Assembly (NCBI RefSeq): GCF_021134715.1
Contig: NC_060021.1
Coordinates: 4,464,001 to 4,528,000 of the forward strand
Source: Daphnia pulex
Lineage: Eukaryota; Arthropoda; Branchiopoda; Diplostraca; Daphniidae
Length of the DNA: 64,000 bases
Reading direction: 5' to 3'
Shown here: piece after piece, positions 3,111-49,740 of the stretch
Numbering within the stretch: the first letter of the stretch is position 1
How the letters are laid out: the number at the start of each line of letters is the position of its first letter
Position numbers and translations under genes: made by a program
The notes under the pieces: generated by a model
What the model was told of the DNA's origin: nothing
Databases searched by the model: none
The model's input: only the letters and a program-made list of their open reading frames with translations

Positions 3111-5900
3111 GTAGAATTCCAACCACGAATTTAAATTAAACAAAAGTTTTAAGTAAAATATGAACTAATTATGCTTTCAGTAAGACTTTCAACTTGACTT
3201 GGTAAAGCATTATCAAAATTATGTTTTACTTTAATAAGGAGGAGGTATTTTATATTGTATCAGCCAATGAGAATAACTTTGGAAGGCATGCAGGAATTTG
3301 GAATAGCAGACGACGATTTAATTTGTATTCAACTTTGCATTTGAAAAACTAAGTTTTTTCAATTGCTTTCACAAGTAGTTTTTATCATTGCAATAACAGC
3401 CATAGGACGTAAACGCCTCTGCAACATGGAAAAATAGTGAAATAAAAAATCAATAGAAAATGAGATAGAGCTCATCGCAAGAAAGGCATTAAAAGCAAAC
3501 TAGTTAGAATAAAGAGTCAAAACATTCTTGTTCGTAAATATTTCTCTAATTATTTTACTTATTGAGTGTTTTTTCTCAAGGATATTATTCTCGGCGCACA
3601 ATCAATTACAGTTATGACAAAATTAAACAGCAACACTGATATGAGATTTTCGCAATAATTAATCAACAATGCCCTAGCAAAGAACCCCGAGATAGGGAAG
3701 AAATAAAGAAAAAATTGAATAATTTTTCGTCCGAAGCTAAGAAAAATTTAAAAGAACATAAGAAGTCTCTAGAGAAACTGGTATTACATTTTTCATAATT
3801 TTATTACAATAAAAAAATTAAAGCAAACATGTTATCTAGGAAGAGAAAAGGTTCTGTGAACTAATTAACGAAATATTGTGATCATGATTAGGGGCAAAAG
3901 AAGTGCAGGTTTGCCAGGAAACAGCATATCTGAGTTAAAAAATCAATTTTAGATAAATCAAGCTAAATATGTTTGTATGGCAGTGTGAAGTAGAGACATA
4001 CGTTATTGAAAACACTCCGGATGGAATAGTTATATTTTCCAAACATCTGCCACAGTGTGAAATCCAGTACCTGTGATTTTGCGTAAGTTATAACTTTTTT
4101 TCAGCTAGGGGATTCACAATTTCAAATATTAAAATTGAACCACCAACCTTTCCTGTAAGCCATCGCGCTATCCATAACACCAATATCACCTTGACATTAT
4201 CATTTTCATTTCAGAGTAATCCGATATTGAAAACAAGGATTTACCTTTTTCTGTCGATTTTTTTTGAATTTTTTTGTAGGATTCTGTACATCTCCTTAAT
4301 GATGTGGAAAAATTGAAGTTAAAAAAAATCATAACCAGGCAGCGAGAACTCATCCGGGAATCCAATCCCGGGTTTCAAAAAGAATATTCCTTTTGAATTC
4401 TATATGGTCTATTGGCTAGGATACCTGGATTTCACCCAGCAGGTTCGGGACCGATTCTCAAAGTTCAAATTTATGAACAGCACAAAACAAAGCTGCCTCA
4501 GAGAAAAACCAGAAACCAAATCTTCTAGATACTTATGATAGGCTTATTTCCGTTGACACATAGATCATTTTATTTTATGAATATCAATGCACCTTCAAAC
4601 AGAAGTGCAAGAGAAGATCGAAAAACCTTCCTTCGTAGAACACTACCTGCTTATTCCATATAACTACTAATCTGCCACTTATTCTTGTAGATCATTTTTA
4701 TTTTGTAGATGATGCACTAGATAGATCGCAACTTAAATCCAAAATCTCTCCAACTTAATGAAAAAAAAACTTAGCTCTAAGAGAAATATTCTCAGGCCTT
4801 GAAATCGTTCACATTTGGAAAAATCTTAGACCTGTTGATTCTGAACATACTTTTCAATACGGGAACGGTTCATCATGAATCAATCAAGTTTATTCCAGTA
4901 GAGATAACGGTGAACACATTAGAAATATACAACTTTGACCCTTGTCCATTAGTGACCACCACTCCTTAGAATGTTAAATTCTTAATTTCGGCACTGTAAC
5001 AGGAAACTGTTCCAATAATATTAAACTCTGGAAACAAACTACTGCTGTGTTGTCGGAATATGCATAAAAAATGAAATGAAACCATTAAGTAACAATTCCT
5101 TGAATAATAATTTTCGGGGGATTGATTTTGTAAACTGTTGGGGAAATATTTTTTAGTCAGTTGTCAAAAGAGTAAAAAATAATGTATTTTTGTAAAGAAC
5201 GAAAAAATCTGATAAGGTACACAAAGTTATTTTATCAAGCATGCATTCAAGACATACTATACACTGAACCACTTGATTGGATTACCTTTAGAGATTTGAG
5301 GTCATCCTTAAAGTCCTCGTAAGAGAGTCCTCTTCAAAGGTTTGCTGTTTGATCACATTCATTTGAGGGTCCTGATATTGAAGATTCAAATGTACTGTGT
5401 TTCTCGTGAAGAAAACTCGAGAAAACTTTCTCAACTTCCAAATTGACCCTCTTACTCAAGGATGACTTAAATAGAACCATTTTAGATCATTTTAAAAATA
5501 TATTTTAGATACTTCTCCTCCTATTTACTTCATTTACTAGAAAGGGACTCTTTTTCCAAATCACAAGGGCGAGCCGCAATTCGTCTTATTCCCAAGTCAA
5601 ATGGTTCATTTGGGGAATCTGGATTAAATAACGGCGCGGGTTCTGGGGCATAAATAAAATTGGCGTTGTGCACGACCTGAGCCGGTAGACGGCCAGCGTA
5701 TTCTCTTCCAGGGATGGTTTTTCTATTTTCATCTCCAATTCAGGAGTTTCATTTAAGCAGAGCCAATTCTATTACGGGGAATGGTTACGATCAACGCAGA
5801 ATTCGGCAAGCTAACGAATAATAACAGTTGCACGAGAAAATGAACTTTGACAAATAAAGAACTGAAGTTAGGGACATTCTGTCACTGCACTACATTGCTT
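3111..5900. other. Noncoding stretch with a tRNA relic
   Basis: Nearly 2.8 kb of AT-rich sequence without a supported protein gene. Apart from the tRNA-Glu relic at 4398-4469 I see no structure. A 25-codon open stretch around 5575 vaguely resembles a DIRS reverse transcriptase finger but is too short to call. Confidence 0.5.
4398..4469 (+). pseudogene. tRNA-Glu(TTC)-like pseudogene
   Basis: The stretch TGGTCTATTGGCTAGGATAC matches the D-arm of eukaryotic tRNA-Glu, followed by CCTGGATTTCACCCAG (anticodon arm, TTC). The acceptor and T stems no longer pair properly and the T-loop reads GGACCGATTC, so it is probably a dead or SINE-derived relic. Confidence 0.6.
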
Positions 5901-6111: not shown

Positions 6112-6414
6112 CTGCAAAGAGGTAAGTGAATAAGAGTGTGAGAAGAAAAATACCAATACAAGTAAGTCCAAGAGTAAGAGGGAAGATAGTTAAAGAATAA
6201 GAGGGGATATAGTGAAAGAAAACTAGCCACCGTTATGAAAAGCCAAGAATTGTGCGTAACGCAGTTGCTGAATTTGTATTCAAATCCGTTTCTGAAGGTA
6301 TGATTTATATGTTTAAGACTTTTTTGAATTTCGCGATGGGCGTTCGAGGCGGCCATCGTCCTTGAACGCTATAACAAAGTGGTACCAACTGTCTTCCTTG
6401 AAACGCAAGTAAAT

Positions 6415-20682: not shown

Positions 20683-20818
20683 ATATTATACGACGAACAA
20701 TACTAATTGTAAAAAACAACTACTTGTTTTTGGACAGAAAGGGATCAGGTTTGAATCATGTCTTTACTAGTGAAGTCATGTTTTAAGCCTTTAACATGAA
20801 TTGTATATCGATTTTTCA

Positions 20819-20930
20819 AATCGATTTGAACTAGTGTTGACCAATTGTATTCTAGCATTTTAAAGGGGGTAGGGTAAGAAAATAACTCCCCGTCGGTACT
20901 ACATCATAACGCCCCTCTTCAGACCATTTT
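20819..20930 (+). repeat. DIRS left inverted terminal repeat
   Basis: Inverted match to 25883-25994 with few differences. It includes AAGGGGGTAGGGTAAGAAAA and CCCCGTCGGTACTACATCAT. The outer 15 bases or so (TATATCGATTTTTC) are specific to this end. Confidence 0.93.
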
Positions 20931-20998
20931 TGCTAGCGCTTAGATAAGGTTCACCCTTTTTTCAGAAAAAAAAAAGAAAAGAGAAAATCTTAGTTCAA

Positions 20999-22167
20999 AT
21001 GGCTGATAGTGGATCGAGCTCATCTAGTTCAAGCTCAGAAAGTTCTAGTTCGTCATCGTCCAGCTCTTCCTCTTCATCAAGTGACTACTCGCGTAGAGGA
21101 GACCGCCGGCGCCGTCAGGCCCGCAACCGTGATCGCGAGAACGAGCGCGTGGCTGAGGGAGGCCGAGATCGTATCCAAGCCAATCCCGTCCATCCGCCTG
21201 TTTCCATGGATCAGCCCTTGCCAGTGAATGTGGTAGAACAACCAGCAGCTCAAGAGCATGGGGGACAGCAGCAGCACGAGATTGAAGGGGGCCTAGACGG
21301 ACAGCAAGGTCCGGTTGGGGCTCAGCCTAATCGCGTGGTTCGAGAATCTAGCAGGAAGAAGGTGCGCCCGTCAAGACGAGAGGGTAAAAGGTTGGTGAAG
21401 AGGTTGAGAAAGGGTGTGAGCAACAAGCGTGTGTCGAAAGTCAAGAAGCGCTACTCGGTGTCTTTCAGTGACAAGTTAGGTTTCAAAGTGCCTTCAATCG
21501 ATTTCCCGATGTACATGCTACTACAGAAGAAGCTAGGCAGTTCCGCGTCCAAGACCAACATCAACGAGGCCGAGAAAGTGCTTTACAAGTCGCAGCAGTC
21601 CCTTTTTCCCATGTTCCCGGTCCTCGCCTATTTGGAGCATCAGAATTTGCCAGGTGCTCAAGGGAAGGCAGTGAAAGATCTGGCCAACCTGGCGGGCAGG
21701 GCATTCTACGACATGTCAGACATGAGGCGCAGGAATGTTTTGGAGATCGTCGGCCCAAACGTTGTTTCTCTGGTGGATGATAGGGACAAGTTCAAGATAG
21801 AAGAGGACAAGGAGCTTTTCGGCACATCGGTGGTGAAAAAATTGAGGAAGGATGGGCAGTTCCTTAGCGACATCAACAGCCTAGATTTGGGAAAATCAAA
21901 ATCGAGATCGGTGAAGGATCGTTTGGCCCCACCGCCATCGTCCCCTGGTGATAGCAGACGACGCCAATACAACAACTACGGCAACAACGCGACCAACCAA
22001 CTTGGCTACCATCGTTATGACCAGGGCGGCTCCGGTGGAGCTCAACAGCAAGGCGCTCCTATACAGCCCAACCAGGCCGGATCCTTCGACTTTCGTCGCA
22101 ACAACGGTGCTCCGCCGACTAATCCGAACGACGCCGGTCCATCCAACGGAGGCTGGTTCAACAGAGG
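20999..22167 (+). CDS. DIRS Gag, main exon
   Basis: ATG at 20999 follows an A-rich leader. The protein opens with a long serine tract, then an Arg/Gln-rich region and a basic stretch (residues about 120-150, RKKVRPSRREGKRLVKRLRK). Next comes a likely capsid region with KVPSIDFPMYMLLQKKLG and ELFGTSVVKKLRK, then an Asn/Gly/Gln-rich tail. The frame runs on without a stop into reverse transcriptase. At 22168 the sequence GTATGTAA is a near-ideal splice donor. Using it would end this exon in NNGWFNRG-like context (GGWFNRG) and join to 25773. Homologous Gag segments occur in the relics at 38366-38480 and 47899-48473. Gag function is inferred from position and composition. Confidence 0.8.
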
Positions 22168-24242
22168 GTATGTAAATCATTCATTATACCGTTTAGACCC
22201 GTATCGCGTTAGCCCGGTTTTTATTGGAGGACGGATCAGGCATTATTGGAGGGCCTGGAGGCTCATCTCTGCGGACCCCTGGATCCTGGGGGTCGTGCAG
22301 GAGGGTTTCAGGTTAGAATTTGAGTTCTCTCCAGTAGCATGGATTGTTCCTCGCAATGCCGGGATGAGTGAGGCCCAGTTGTCTATCGGTAGACAAGAGG
22401 TAAAGGACCTCTTTCAAAAAGGGGCGATAATTGAGCCAAGCAGAGTCGAGTTTGTTAGTCCCATGTTTATTATTCCGAAAGCCACGGGGGGATTTAGGCC
22501 TATCATTAATCTAAAGAGACTCAATAAGTTCTTAATTCTCCGCCATTTCAAGATGGAAAACATTAATTCTCTCAGGCACCTTATTGTTAAGGGGGACTGG
22601 ATGGTCAAGTTGGACCTCAAAGACGCATACCTAACGGTGCCGGTCTTTGAGGGACACCAGAAATATTTGCAGTTTCTTTGGGAGGGGAAAGTCTACCAGT
22701 TTGTTTGTCTGCCGTTCGGTTTGGCTTCCGCTCCGTGGGCGTTCACAAAATTGCTCAAACCAGTAGTTGCCTTTTTGCGCAGTCTGGGTTGTCGCCTTGT
22801 AATTTACTTGGATGACCTCATTTTATTAGACCAGTGTAAAATCAGGCTCATGCAGACACTTTCATTCGTGAAGCACCTGCTTCAAGTGTTGGGTTTTATT
22901 ATTAATGATTTGAAATCCTCCCAGTCGCCACTTCAGTTTTTAGAGTTCTTGGGTCTGTTGGTGGATTCGGTAAATTTAAAAATCTTCCTCCCCGAAGATA
23001 AGATTGAGTCAATCCGAACTAAATTTTCCGAAGCGCTGGCCAAATCTTATCTGTCGCTTCGAGACTTAGCGAGCTTACTGGGCAGATTTAACTGGGCGGA
23101 ATCAGCGGTCCCTTTAGCTAGAGCGCACTACAGGGCCGTCCAGGCCGTGTATATTGGGCATTCCAGATTATGTGGGGGGGGGGGGGATTTGCGAGCCAAG
23201 ACCCCCCTATCACGTTTGTCCAAGATGGACCTGGCCTGGTGGATGGATAGATCGGTCTATGTACCAGGGAGGAACATGTTTGAAGCCGAGCCAGCCCTAA
23301 CTATTTGCGCCGATGCATCTTTAACGGGTTGGGGCGCAGTTTGTGGCGAGACAAGTACCGGGATGACCTGGACATCCGAGGAGAGTTCCCTTCACATCAA
23401 CGTGCTTGAGCTACAGGCGGCATTCAATGCCCTACAATCGTTTGCAGGTTTCGTAAGTAATTGTACAATCAGGCTGCGTTTGGACAATTCTACTGCAGTT
23501 TCGTATATTAATAGGGTGGGGGGGCACACGGTCCCATGCATTGAACGAACTCGCCATCAAAATAGCTCGTTGGTGCGAGACCAAGAATATCTCGTTGCAG
23601 GCAGAACATTTACCGGGAGTATTTAATGTCATTGCAGACAGGGAATCCCGCAGGAGAATCGATTGGAGCGATTGGCGACTGAATCCGGAGGCTTTCAGGA
23701 GTCTGATGGAAGTATGGCCAATGAGGGTCGACCTATTTTCCAACCCTTGGAACGCGCAGCTCGAAACATTTGTCAGCTGGAATGCACAGCCGGGCGCGTG
23801 GGCGACGAATGCGTTTTCATTGAGCTGGAGATCAATGAAGGGTTACGCTTTCCCCCCCTTTTCGGTGATTCGGGATTGTTTATCCAAGATCCGGAGAGAC
23901 AGAGCGTCAATAGTGGTGGTCACCCCGCTTTGGACGAGCCAGCCATGGTTCCCGTCGCTGCTGGGCCTCTCTTGCGATGTCCCGCAAATTTTCCGCCCGT
24001 CCGAGAACCTCCTAGTATCAGCACAGGGAGAGCGGAATCCGTTATGCGAGGTGGCCAGCTTCCGCCTCGTCGCATGGATGTTATCCGGGGAAGATTCGAA
24101 GGGGAGGGATTTTCGAGCGAGGTGGTCGACTTATTCATGTCGGCGACACGAGACAACACAAACTCCGCTTACGCTTCAGCCTGGCGAATTTGGTCAGATT
24201 GGTGTGTGGGAAGGGGTGCCGATCCCCTGTGTAATGATGTAA
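22168..24242 (+). CDS. DIRS Pol: reverse transcriptase and RNase H, with a frameshift
   Basis: Continues the Gag frame. Reverse transcriptase blocks: FVSPMFIIPKATGGFRPI, VKLDLKDAYLTVPV, FVCLPFGLASAPWAFTK and the catalytic VIYLDDLIL. RNase H follows with TICADASLTGWGAVCG, HINVLELQAAFNAL and RLDNSTAVSYINR. At a G-run (about 23516-23523) the frame shifts. The second frame (from 23541) carries NELAIKIARWCE, QAEHLPGVFNVIADRESR and LNPEAFRSLMEVW, and ends at 24242. It overlaps the recombinase frame, as is usual in DIRS elements. I see no separate start codon context, so expression as a Gag-Pol fusion from unspliced RNA is inferred. The G-run shift may be a sequencing error. Confidence 0.9.
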
Positions 24243-25066
24243 CTGTGGTAACTTCCTTCCTAGCCGACCAGGCCAAGTCTAAAGCGTATAGCACGATTGG
24301 TGTATATCACTCCGCTCTGTCCCAAACGTTACCCCCCCCCCCTGAAGGGCTCCCCTATAGGTGAACACCCCATGGTCGTTTTGCTGATGAAAGGTATTCG
24401 AAATCAGAACCCCCCTAGACCTAAATATCAGTCCACTTGGGATGTTGATATGGTTCTTAACTATCTCAGAGGGCAGAAGAACGCTTCACTTTCGGTGGGA
24501 GCGTTGGCCTCAAAACTAGCCACTCTCCTGTCCCTGGCAACTCTCTACAGAGCCAGCGAACTGGCCGGAATTGACAAAAGATCGATCAGCTTCACCGCGG
24601 AAGGAGTCTCCTTTTCGCTCTCCAAATTCAGGAAGGCCCAAAGAGGAGGTGCCCTTCAATCAATTTTCCTTAAAAAACTCGCCGACGAACAACTTGACCC
24701 GGGAAGGTGTCTCAGTCGGTATTGTGAAGTGACGGAGAAATATCGCACCGACAAGAACAGCGAGAGTTTGTTCATCGGTTCAGTGGGCCAGCATGCACCC
24801 CCATGTGCACAAGTTCAACGATTTCAGCCTGGATTAAAAAGGAACTGAAAGCAGCCGGGGTTGATACGGAGCGTTTTTCGGGCCACTCCACCCGTGGGGC
24901 TGCAGCGTCCAAAGCAGCGGCTTCGGGAGTATCAGTAGAATCGATCCTGAGTGCTGGGCACTGGTCAGCAGAATCCACATTCACTAGATTCTACAGGAGA
25001 GACGCGGCCATCAACCCGAGCACATCGGTGGCAGGAGCGGTCCTTTCACTAGGCAATATCGCCTAG
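23663..25066 (+). CDS. DIRS tyrosine recombinase, two frame breaks
   Basis: Three overlapping frames make one recombinase. The N-terminal core-binding part has DNTNSAYASAWRIWSDW. It breaks at the C-run at about 24331-24341. The middle part has LATLYRASELAG, supplying the first catalytic Arg. A second break is at the C-run near 24796. The C-terminal part has FSGHSTRGAAASKAA (His-x-x-Arg), LSAGHWSAESTF (His/Trp) and RFYRRD (nucleophilic Tyr). It should resolve and integrate circular element DNA in place of an integrase. A likely start is the Met at 24044, before DVIRGRF, inside the Pol frame. Both breaks lie at cytosine runs, so the gene may be intact in reality. Confidence 0.88.
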
Positions 25067-25517
25067 TGGGTACGGTTTTTCTTTAATTTCTCACTATCAG
25101 CTTCATAGTGTTAACGGATTTTTTGTTGTCTCAGTTTTTATAAGTTCTGTCGTGCACGCAAACCCTCGTTAAATTTATGCCCTACACATTCCCTGTTATT
25201 TGCCCTTATCCTGGCCTCTAATACCTACCTTATACCTATGGTTCCAACACCATCCGCGAGTGGCGCCAAGGGAACGAGGAAATGGCAGAAACGTTTAAAG
25301 AGTATCGCCCCCCCCCCGCTTTTCATTTTGTTCTGTCTAATGTTTTTAGACAGCCAGTGGTGTAAGTTAGAAATGGGGACCTTTCGTTTTTTCCTAACGT
25401 TTATTGGTTTTTATGCATAGGCATGGTTAAGGCATTAGGCACTATACATGGTTTAAGAGCACGTAATGGGTGGAAACTTAAGTGTATGTAGGGGACTTAA
25501 GTTAATGGCTTTAAATT
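25067..25517 (+). other. Noncoding region between recombinase and internal complementary region
   Basis: About 450 bases after the recombinase stop, without a convincing frame. Inside the proposed pol-containing intron. Confidence 0.6.
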
Positions 25518-25623
25518 CACTAGTTCAAATCGATTTGAACAATCGATATACAATTGGAAATTGTCTCAGGTACTCCGCCAAGACAATTAAGATTGTATGA
25601 GATAGAGAGAATCGATTTGAACT
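25518..25623 (+). repeat. DIRS internal complementary region (circle junction template)
   Basis: The first part (CACTAGTTCAAATCGATTTG to ATACAATT) is the reverse complement of the extreme left end. The second part (GGAAATTGTCTCAGGTACTC to AATCGATTTGAACT) is the reverse complement of the extreme right end. The two meet at CAATTGG. This fits the DIRS1 model, where this region bridges both ends of the cDNA so it can be closed into a circle. Confidence 0.93.
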
Positions 25624-25772
25624 GTAATTTCCTCCCGCCCTCCCGTTACAGTCAATCGATCCAGTTGGCATTCATAATCTTTAGTGTTTTTGATCCAGTC
25701 AAATTCCACCAACTGTTTCTTTCCTATGTCAATTTCTAATGTTATGTCCTTGTTTCAATTTACCTTCTGCAG

Positions 25773-25839
25773 ATACGCTAATGGCTATTCGCGCGGTAGG
25801 GGAGGCAGAGGAGGAAGCCGTGGTCGTGGAAACTTTTGA
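25773..25839 (+). CDS. DIRS Gag, 3' exon (RGG-rich tail)
   Basis: A polypyrimidine tract and TTCTGCAG acceptor end at 25772. The exon completes the split glycine codon of 22166-22167 and reads YANGYSRGRGGRGGSRGRG then NF and a TGA at 25837-25839. RGG repeats bind RNA, a plausible Gag nucleocapsid function. It has no start of its own and makes sense only if spliced to a donor upstream in the matching phase, which 22168 provides. The intron would be 3605 bases and include all of pol and the internal complementary region. Confidence 0.72.
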
Positions 25840-25882
25840 AGTTGCAAGATAAACCCACCACCCACCCATTGTATTATTATTT

Positions 25883-25994
25883 AAAATGGTCTGAAGAGGG
25901 GCGTGATGATGTAGTACCGACGGGGAGTTATTTTCTTACCCTACCCCCTTTCAAATGCTAGAATACAATTGGTCAACACTAGTTCAAATCGATT
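25883..25994 (-). repeat. DIRS right inverted terminal repeat
   Basis: Inverted copy of 20819-20930. The outer extension from 25995 to about 26050 (CTCTCTATCTCATACAATCT onward) is specific to the right end and is matched by the internal complementary region. Confidence 0.93.
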
Positions 25995-26111
25995 CTCTCT
26001 ATCTCATACAATCTTAATTGTCTTGGCGGAGTACCTGAGACAATTTCCGATTGAATTTATTATTACTGTTCATACGATCTTCACTTAATTGTTGATAAGG
26101 ATAATAATACA

Positions 26112-27258: not shown

Positions 27259-27436
27259 ATACTATACGACGAACAATACTAATTGTAAAAAACAACTACT
27301 TGTTTTGGACAGAAAGGGATCAGGTTTGAATCATGTCTTTACTAGTGAAGTCATGTTTTAAGCCTTTAACATGAATTGAATTTATTATTACTGTTCATAC
27401 GATCTTCACTTAATTGTTGATAAGGATAATAATACA

Positions 27437-47898: not shown

Positions 47899-49740
47899 AA
47901 CTTTTAGTGGCGGTAAAAATTCAACGGCTAGCAAAGGGTCAATTGATTCGCACGAGAAGGATCTTTACAAGATTCGACAAAAGGTGCTCGATGCAGTGAA
48001 GCCCATTATATTTTTGGCCAACGAGAAACTGGTGGACGATGCCCACCACGAGGCAGTGAAGACCGCACTATCCCTCCTAGGTTGAGCCTCGAAAATTCTT
48101 TAGCGGATGCACGTCACCACACCGTCCTTGCGATGATTGCAGCGATGATTCGAATTTCAATTCCGACGAAGCGGAGGATCTCTTCGGAAAATCCTTTGTC
48201 AAGAAGTTGGTTAAATCAGCCGAAACTGTGAAGAAACTGGCGAGTTTGGGCCAACCTGATCGCGCTGGCAGTAGTAATCGCTCGACGGAACAAATTGGCC
48301 AAAGGGCTGGAACACCCAGATCAAATTTATACCGAGAAGCTCCTGGTTCCGGTTATGGAGATCAAAACAATTTTTATGGCGCTGGCTCGCAGAAAAAGTC
48401 GCGGTGGATTCAGCTGTGGTCAATCCAACTCCTATCAGGGCCGCGCCAGTTACAATTTAAAAGGCCGCGGTGGGTATGTACAATTATTTGAATCCCTTAT
48501 CCCCGATTCACCTATGACATCTGAGACTTCCTCATTCGTAACAAACAAGATAGCCGACAAGCTTCGTTTTTTCCGCTCCGACTGGTCCAAAATTTAAAGC
48601 GACACATGGGTTTTAAGCAGGTATCGGAGAACCTTCAGCTTGAGTTTACCAACACCCCATTCCAATTAGAACCGGCCTCTAATATGCACATGTCAAACCC
48701 AAAAAAGAAAATTTGCAACCAGGAAGTTTTGGAAATGGTCGGCAAAGGTGCGGTGGCGGAGATGAGATCTCAGCGCTTCGTCCGCGGTTTTTTTCTCGTT
48801 CCCAAAAGCGACGGATCCTGGAGGCCTTTTATTAATCTTAAGGGGTTGAATAGTTTTCTTGTGTATCGCCAGTTTAAATGGAGGGCCTTAACAACGCTAC
48901 CCATCTGGTGAAGCCCAGGTGTTTGAATGGCAGAAATCAACTTGAGGGATGGCTATTTTACGGTTCCCCTCCATCAGGTCGATCGACACCTGTTACAGTT
49001 TAGGTGGGGGAGGGGGGGGGGGGGTTCGAAAGGCAAGTCTCTATTTCAACGATGTCCAGCGTTAGTTATTTGCTCTGACGTCTCTCTGTCCGACTGGGGA
49101 GTGGTTTGTGGGGGGGGGGGGGGTTTGACTGCGGGACCATGCAAATCGACCGATATTGCTAAGCACATGAATTGGAATTGCTTGGCGCCTTTAACGCTTT
49201 GCGCTCATTCGCCAACGACCTACGCAGCTCTTCAGTTTTGTAAAATTAAATAACTATACGGCGTCTCTTATATTAATAAATGGGGGGGAGATCGGAACCG
49301 TGACTGTGTGATTTAGCCTCGGCTATTTACAAATGGTTCGAATCCCGCAATATCAACTCACTTGCCGGGTTATCTAAAGGGAATTGAAGATGCGCAATCG
49401 AGGTGGTAACCGGATTCGACTGACTAATGGTTAGAACCGGAAGCTTTCCGACTGATCACCAGAAGATGGACGGTGTCGCTGGATCTGTTTTCATCGTCAT
49501 GGAACTGGGTGTTCTGCCGCGATTTGTGAGCTAGCTACCACAGCCGGGCACTTGGGGGATCCATCCATCCTGTTTTTCAAGGCAATTGTCTACCGTCTGA
49601 TCACATGGAAGTTATCCGGGATCGCTTCAGAAGCGGAGGCCTTCCGGAGAACTCTATCCGACTCATCATGGCGGGAAGACGCGCTACAACCCACTCCTCC
49701 TACCAGGCGGCATGGAAAATTTGGAGCGGCTAGTGTAATA
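47899..49740 (+). pseudogene. DIRS relic 2, right part: Gag, RT, RNase H, recombinase start
   Basis: Follows the P-element duplication. Gag: EKDLYKIRQKVLDAVKPII and, after a break, EDLFGKSFVKKLVKSAETVK (compare ELFGTSVVKKLRK in the intact copy). Then NLKGRGGYVQL with GTATGT at 48474 in the same codon phase as the donor at 22168. RT: FFLVPKSDGSWRPFINLK and INLRDGYFTVPLHQVDRHLL. It then jumps through a G-run (about 49008-49024) straight to RNase H (VICSDVSLSDWGVVCG), so the YLDD core is deleted. Further pieces: VSYINKWGG, then VIRDRFRSGGLPENS and YQAAWKIWSG, matching the start of the recombinase. The relic stops near 49740. Many stops and shifts. Confidence 0.85.

Follow-up and report, generated by a model that had tools for sequence, protein, structure and literature searches.

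A predicted gag intron spanning pol, recombinase and the internal complementary region in DIRS1-like retrotransposons of Daphnia pulex

How a retrotransposon whose gag runs uninterrupted into its polymerase could obtain free Gag is the question raised by a DIRS1-like element of Daphnia pulex, which occupies positions 20800–26052 (forward strand) of the 64,000-nt stretch analyzed here (the window, positions 4464001–4528000 of contig NC_060021.1). DIRS elements have no retropepsin according to the available portion of a published account (PMC12440569) and, because they have no protease, Gag must be freed from a fused Gag-Pol by other means. A comparison of the window element with its relatives in the same genome points to an answer at the RNA level. 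DIRS1-like elements of this species very probably carry a two-exon gag with one intron of ~3.6 kb, which extends from the start of the reverse transcriptase (RT) to just past the internal complementary region (ICR) and may be either kept or removed. The interpretation offered in the original prediction for this locus, namely that the whole pol region is one intron of gag, is supported by this comparison at the level of sequence.

Predicted gag exons and splice sites in the window element

The open reading frame (ORF) at 20999–23626 (875 aa) crosses from gag into RT without a stop, as had been claimed, and our reading of the letters and frames reproduced the proposed donor, acceptor, phase and 21-residue tail exactly to the base. 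The first gag exon (20999–22167, 1169 nt; forward strand, as all features of the element described here) comprises 389 codons plus two bases and encodes a Ser-rich start and a Gly/Asn/Arg-rich end; it would finish with ...AACAGAGG at 22167, where GTATGTAA comes next. This is the Gag/RT boundary, and it holds a predicted splice donor GTATGT in phase 2 (22168–22173, in the context G/GTATGT) that is conserved across lineages. The single intron predicted from sequence and conservation (22168–25772, 3605 nt) would contain RT, RNase H, the tyrosine recombinase and the ICR, and would close with a pyrimidine-rich tract and acceptor, TTCTGCAG (25750–25772), the acceptor itself (TTGTTTCAATTTACCTTCTGCAG, last base 25772) being located between the ICR and the right inverted terminal repeat (ITR). 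Across the predicted junction, the coding part of gag exon 2 (25773–25839, a reading for which sister copies also speak) would complete a Gly codon (GG+A) and continue with YANGYSRGRGGRGGSRGRGNF (21 residues, RGG-rich) up to TGA at 25837–25839. In Gag-Pol, RT stands at the very place where this tail would extend the Gly/Arg/Asn-rich end of Gag.

A C-rich stretch (25631–25650 in the window element; 12–14 C in 20 nt, e.g., CCCACCCACC) follows the ICR and precedes the acceptor in all 15 lineages with a readable 3′ end (the window element and 14 others, L043–L064). Replication might be primed at this stretch, or a splicing regulator might bind to it.

Donor, acceptor and tail among related lineages

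A protein search of the host assembly (133 Mb, 13 contigs) with the window RT returned 123 match rows, some copies giving several rows, from which a subset, mostly chosen for long open frames, was studied. This yielded 17 lineages including the window element (a first batch of 12 loci plus a second batch), with RT identities to the window element of 45–64% in the ten lineages aligned. L030, L035 and L037 were merged into their families; L032, L034, L040 and most of the 123 rows lie outside the donor counts; L068 (judged by eye to belong to a more distant RT clade) and L069 (by eye, Gypsy-like) were excluded. The 3′ end, defined by the ICR and its complementary arm, was placed in 15 lineages, and in those without a recognizable inner edge of the right ITR the gap was extended to the ICR-complementary arm; the tail rows exclude L033 (no ICR found), L066 (3′ piece belonging to another element) and L016 (of the L014 family, 3′ part rearranged). 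L021–L030, with nine RT matches of identical score and a 1213-aa open frame (1236 aa in L030), are a recently spread DIRS family. The partial copy L005 carries, at 731–1500, an insert of ~0.75 kb relative to the window element, soon after the donor position.

At the Gag/RT boundary, GTAYG in phase 2 is present in 15 of the 17 lineages, and the remaining two have donor variants in the same phase (GTCGGA in L033 and GTCAGT in L039). Anchoring on an RT motif worked in 14 lineages (L015, L021 and L061 are without the searched motif, and their donors were read separately), among which an out-of-phase GTRNG within 105 nt upstream of the motif occurs only once, in L039. A probe for the unspliced donor of the L021 family matched 10 places in the genome, all without mismatch, although it is blind to copies differing by more than 3 bases.

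The simplest alternative is that no splicing takes place: gag-pol would be made as one polyprotein, the donor letters would stem from the conservation of Arg-Tyr where Gag meets RT, and the tail would be a frame open by chance. Gag and RT indeed share an open frame across the boundary in all 12 first-batch loci, and the measured host introns are short, as this alternative would have it. Several properties of the border nevertheless speak against it. In the 14 measurable lineages, the RT motif lies 28–70 nt past the phase-2 donor, a variation unlike that of a fixed protein motif, and the peptide past the donor varies in sequence and length except for a Tyr whose codon coincides with the donor and which is kept in 15 of 16 rows. 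Moreover, the Arg or Gly codon preceding this Tyr ends in GG in 14 of the 14 lineages with Arg/Gly-Tyr, far above the expectation from codon usage in these frames (26% for Arg and 17% for Gly). The lack of a protease to cleave the fusion, as described in the available part of PMC12440569, also counts against a single polyprotein, as does the reading phase of the tail, to which we now turn; overall, we consider the absence of splicing quite improbable.

For the 3′ side, the AG with the best composition-only score was picked within the 220 nt that follow the ICR, and all three phases were then translated. This pick coincided with the proposed acceptor in 14 of 15 lineages (the exception being L021). 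When a tail was defined as 6–40 residues with ≥58% G/R/N/S/Q/K, a G/R/N/S-rich tail after the best acceptor was found in phase 2, the phase of the donor, in 13 of the 15 lineages, vs. one in phase 0 (L018, which passes in both phases) and one in phase 1 (L055). Tails appeared in a mean of 0.33 and a maximum of 3 of 15 lineages over 400 dinucleotide shuffles, in 0/2/2 lineages by phase for reverse complements, and in a mean of 0.50 (maximum 3) for random stretches of the same elements. Since the threshold was set after the tails had been seen and the lineages are related, we place more weight on the contrast between phases than on the shuffle figure. The richest tail is in phase 2 in 12 of the 15 lineages; for L055 and L021 it is in phase 1, and L018 was narrowly lost (0.73 vs. 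0.74). Examples of such tails are SSGNSNAFRGRGRGYRGRGD (L014), FRGRRGGSRGGR (L039), GRSGSFSNGGRRGS (L061) and ANSRGSNYRNGSNHFNNRN (L017), and a phase-2 tail picked by eye in L021 (NQTFRGRKAGGYSRSKNN, after CGCGTAG) raises the fit to 14 of 15. In the sister copies L010, L011 and L012 (76–78% identity here) the tail frame is kept, with a 3-nt indel, the other indels falling in the flanks.

The RG-rich frame could also be real and yet belong elsewhere, as the last exon of another product (e.g., the recombinase) or as a separate small protein. Its location 3′ of the recombinase, whose own expression (overlapping pol, in another frame) is unexplained, would suit such a role. However, the window tail has no Met, and its composition carries on from the Gag C terminus, and an assignment to any product other than Gag strikes us as extremely improbable. 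A last recombinase exon was tried separately and rejected, 14 of 15 elements having no G/GTRNG in the final 300 nt of what was taken as the recombinase frame; the only element with sites there is L057 (two GTGCG, phase 1).

Two possible fates of the transcript

In a two-exon gag of this kind, removal of the intron would leave a short mRNA encoding free Gag, which would end in an Arg/Gly/Asn tail of RNA-binding-like character, while intron retention would give a Gag-RT-RNase H polyprotein together with an ICR-bearing RNA that could be replicated. Splicing itself, a partial use of the sites and a control of the Gag:Pol ratio are what we infer from these features, and the unspliced RNA would presumably be the genome. 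The ICR is required in the model of DIRS replication. Because the ICR precedes the proposed acceptor in each of the 15 lineages, a spliced RNA would lose what replication needs and could not complete the DIRS cycle, which adds to the idea put forward originally; the position of the ICR inside the intron would thus presumably keep Gag mRNA out of replication. We regard it as likely that one splicing choice gives each DIRS transcript one of two fates, either a Gag message without ICR that is never circularized or copied, or Gag-Pol plus a replicable genome. Such a separation of messenger and genome at the RNA level, conserved to ~45% RT identity, would substitute for the missing protease. The contrast in length with the measured host introns could be what makes splicing partial.

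The same donor could be used in other ways: the intron might be removed constitutively, with Gag-Pol arising solely from occasional transcripts that escape splicing, or Gag might be joined to the recombinase through a second acceptor (e.g., at the IAD codons of RNase H). In favor of the latter, the Ala codon of IAD is GCA, giving ...GCAG, in 8 of the 9 loci matched among 17 searched, and joining at IAD would be in frame with the recombinase in L015 (2918), L017 (2912) and L039 (2915). Such acceptor-like letters were noted in RNase H of the window element as well. On the other hand, GCA may be an ordinary codon choice, and the recombinase frames of L021 and L036 do not open before locus positions 3189 and 3195, respectively, which are downstream of the position that the motif has elsewhere, the motif being unmatched in both. 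Either variant appears improbable as the main strategy, and the second acceptor at the IAD motif is kept as a lead only.

A number of observations weigh against a two-exon gag whose intron is kept or removed. The host introns are far shorter than the one predicted, at 57–80 nt (nine picked by eye in TCP-1-like genes) and 62–200 nt (four in one further gene), four genes in all. No spliced genomic copies were found in the D. pulex genome with junction probes of 28–30 nt at ≤3 mismatches for the window element and the L021 and L036 families, whereas the unspliced L021 probe, which served as a control, gave the 10 matches described above; their absence fits the proposed strategy but would also be expected if no splicing took place. 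Among individual copies, the decayed near relatives L002 (10-nt deletion) and L003 (base changes) have lost the donor, L011 has lost the acceptor AG, and L055/L056 retains donor and acceptor, although its tail is off frame. The acceptor of the recently spread L021 family (AAAAAACGCGTAG) is nearly without a pyrimidine tract and lost the blind pick, and in L018 the phase 0 tail scores as rich as the phase 2 tail. Finally, the lineages are related (L042 and L055 closely), and the counts are thus not independent, the tail-richness threshold was fixed with the tails already in view, and the counts cover only part of the 123 match rows.

Taken as the comparison of related copies that the original prediction had called for, these results bear it out for the donor (15 of 17) and for the acceptor with in-phase tail (13 of 15 blind, 14 of 15 with one picked by eye), but not for L002, L003 and L011, where a site is missing, or for L055/L056, where the frame is lost. 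All of the latter copies are decayed or partial. The exception to this rule is L033, in which the gag-pol frame is open, yet the donor GTCGGA is weak, and there is no ICR end for reading a tail.

As an aside to the host introns, two introns of the TCP-1-like gene L078 (C12) share nearly the same stretch (GGCAAGGAAAAATTCTAGGAGTCTCC...), which resembles a small intron-dwelling repeat.

Element structure, known systems and implications

The boundaries of the full-length window element were established by comparing its termini, ICR and repeats with an empty host unit visible at 27360–27400. The element has ATT at both ends and is bordered by a left ITR (20800–20930) and a right ITR (25883–26052), within which 20819–20930 pairs with 25883–25994 (98%). 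The ICR (25518–25623) is complementary to both element ends through the arms 25518–25555 and 25548–25623, the former pairing with 20799–20836 at the left end, and contains the 3-bp junction AAT; 11 of 12 further loci likewise have an ICR with its complementary arm on the 3′ side. Target-site duplication is absent relative to the empty unit of the tandem array with tRNA genes into which the element is inserted, although a few bases common to element and site blur the exact join. RT and the start of RNase H occupy 22166–23626 in the gag frame (Pfam RVT_1, E 1.5e-18), and the solved structures matched by the RT profile include 4ol8_A (RT/RNase H, 4.8e-22) and 7q5b_A (Ty3-G Gag-Pol, 6.4e-21). The window copy is interrupted in pol: its gag-pol frame stops within RNase H, at 23626, and it is not intact past RT. 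The rest of RNase H and the following region, recognized by open frames and the IAD motif, are in another frame and likewise interrupted (23541–24242). The tyrosine recombinase (24297–25066) is split into two overlapping open frames with Phage_integrase matches below the Pfam cut-off (E 1.1e-4 for 24803–25066 and 0.052 for 24297–24848), the same family being above the cut-off in the relative L047 (E 3e-7). No retroviral-type integrase or protease families are among the Pfam hits for the window pieces, L017, L021 and L047; in the same scans, PF05869 Dam (methyltransferase) appears below the cut-off in L021 (E 0.0063), with none listed for L017 or the window pieces.

The window copy contains homopolymer runs of 13 G (23174–23186), 11 C (24332–24342) and 10 C (25308–25317), the first of which precedes the point where the pol frame is lost; either decay or a sequencing slip is possible. 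Further side features of the window are clusters of tRNA genes at 6414–29071 (19 ARAGORN hits), arranged from ~19 kb onward in tandem units of ~1.3 kb, and a second, decayed DIRS-like RT fragment at 48621–49007 (38% identity to the first, two stops).

The element resembles the reviewed DIRS1-like elements (Piednoel et al., 2011; PMC3266345, in its available portion) in having gag, RT-RNase H, a recombinase overlapping pol in place of an integrase, ITRs, an ICR with a shared 3-bp junction, and ATT ends without target-site duplication. It differs from them in that gag, described there as a separate ORF, is here fused to pol (in 12 of 12 loci), and in the conserved coding exon predicted between the ICR and the right ITR. 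A fused gag-pol frame with a donor behind gag, an acceptor downstream and an early in-frame stop is the arrangement of Ty1/copia elements, where spliced subgenomic RNA provides Gag and unspliced RNA Gag-Pol, a division of labor predicted here from comparison. As far as the accessible parts of the sources go, a spliced Gag RNA is described for barley BARE1 (PMC3735527), for Arabidopsis EVADE (shGAG RNA; its intron exceeds host introns in length, as the predicted one does here; PMC8892269) and for Drosophila copia (Copia-gag RNA; PMC11835246). Unlike Ty1/copia elements, with their long terminal repeats, integrase and protease, the Daphnia elements combine inverted repeats with a tyrosine recombinase and lack a protease, and the ICR would be lost along with their predicted intron. 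The same sources indicate that the short EVADE RNA ends by premature polyadenylation, whereas exon 2 would here be at the 3′ end of the element, and that Copia-gag retains the protease region, whereas the predicted tail of the Daphnia elements is short and RG-rich. DIRS gag in spliced transcripts has a precedent in domesticated DIRS1-like gag, the LAP2alpha exons of TMPO and ZNF451 (PMC4495291, in part); after co-option, these sequences are spliced to host exons, its authors infer an acceptor in the colonizing sequence, and no pol-spanning intron is described in that portion.

In the open literature searched, we found no report of a spliced-Gag strategy in DIRS elements, although an earlier remark is possible in subscription papers or Repbase. 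Introns or splicing are not mentioned in the DIRS texts PMC3266345, PMC3783388, PMC9210276, PMC2685390 and PMC12440569, as far as their available content extends; mentions of splicing in PMC6681497 (one, host trans-splicing) and PMC4157794 (two) are unrelated, and intron passages in the accessible part of PMC5633606 concern a marker-gene intron. Outside D. pulex, one scan of genome contigs returned a single distant contig (L070), and three scans of viral contigs returned none. L070 is DIRS-like (RT 36%), is filed under an Armatimonadetes metagenome-assembled genome, probably as eukaryotic contamination, and is too short to reach an ICR; its gag continues in an open frame into RT, and GTAAGT occurs close to their border, by our count in phase 1; the contig was counted neither way.

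The strategy being known in Ty1/copia, its occurrence in DIRS elements would be convergent, in a separate order of retrotransposons. How protease-less DIRS elements produce free Gag and separate messenger from genome is unexplained in those portions of the DIRS literature that we examined, and a conserved gag intron containing both pol and the ICR would provide a concrete answer. If this is true, the annotation of DIRS gag would change, because its last exon would lie beyond the ICR.

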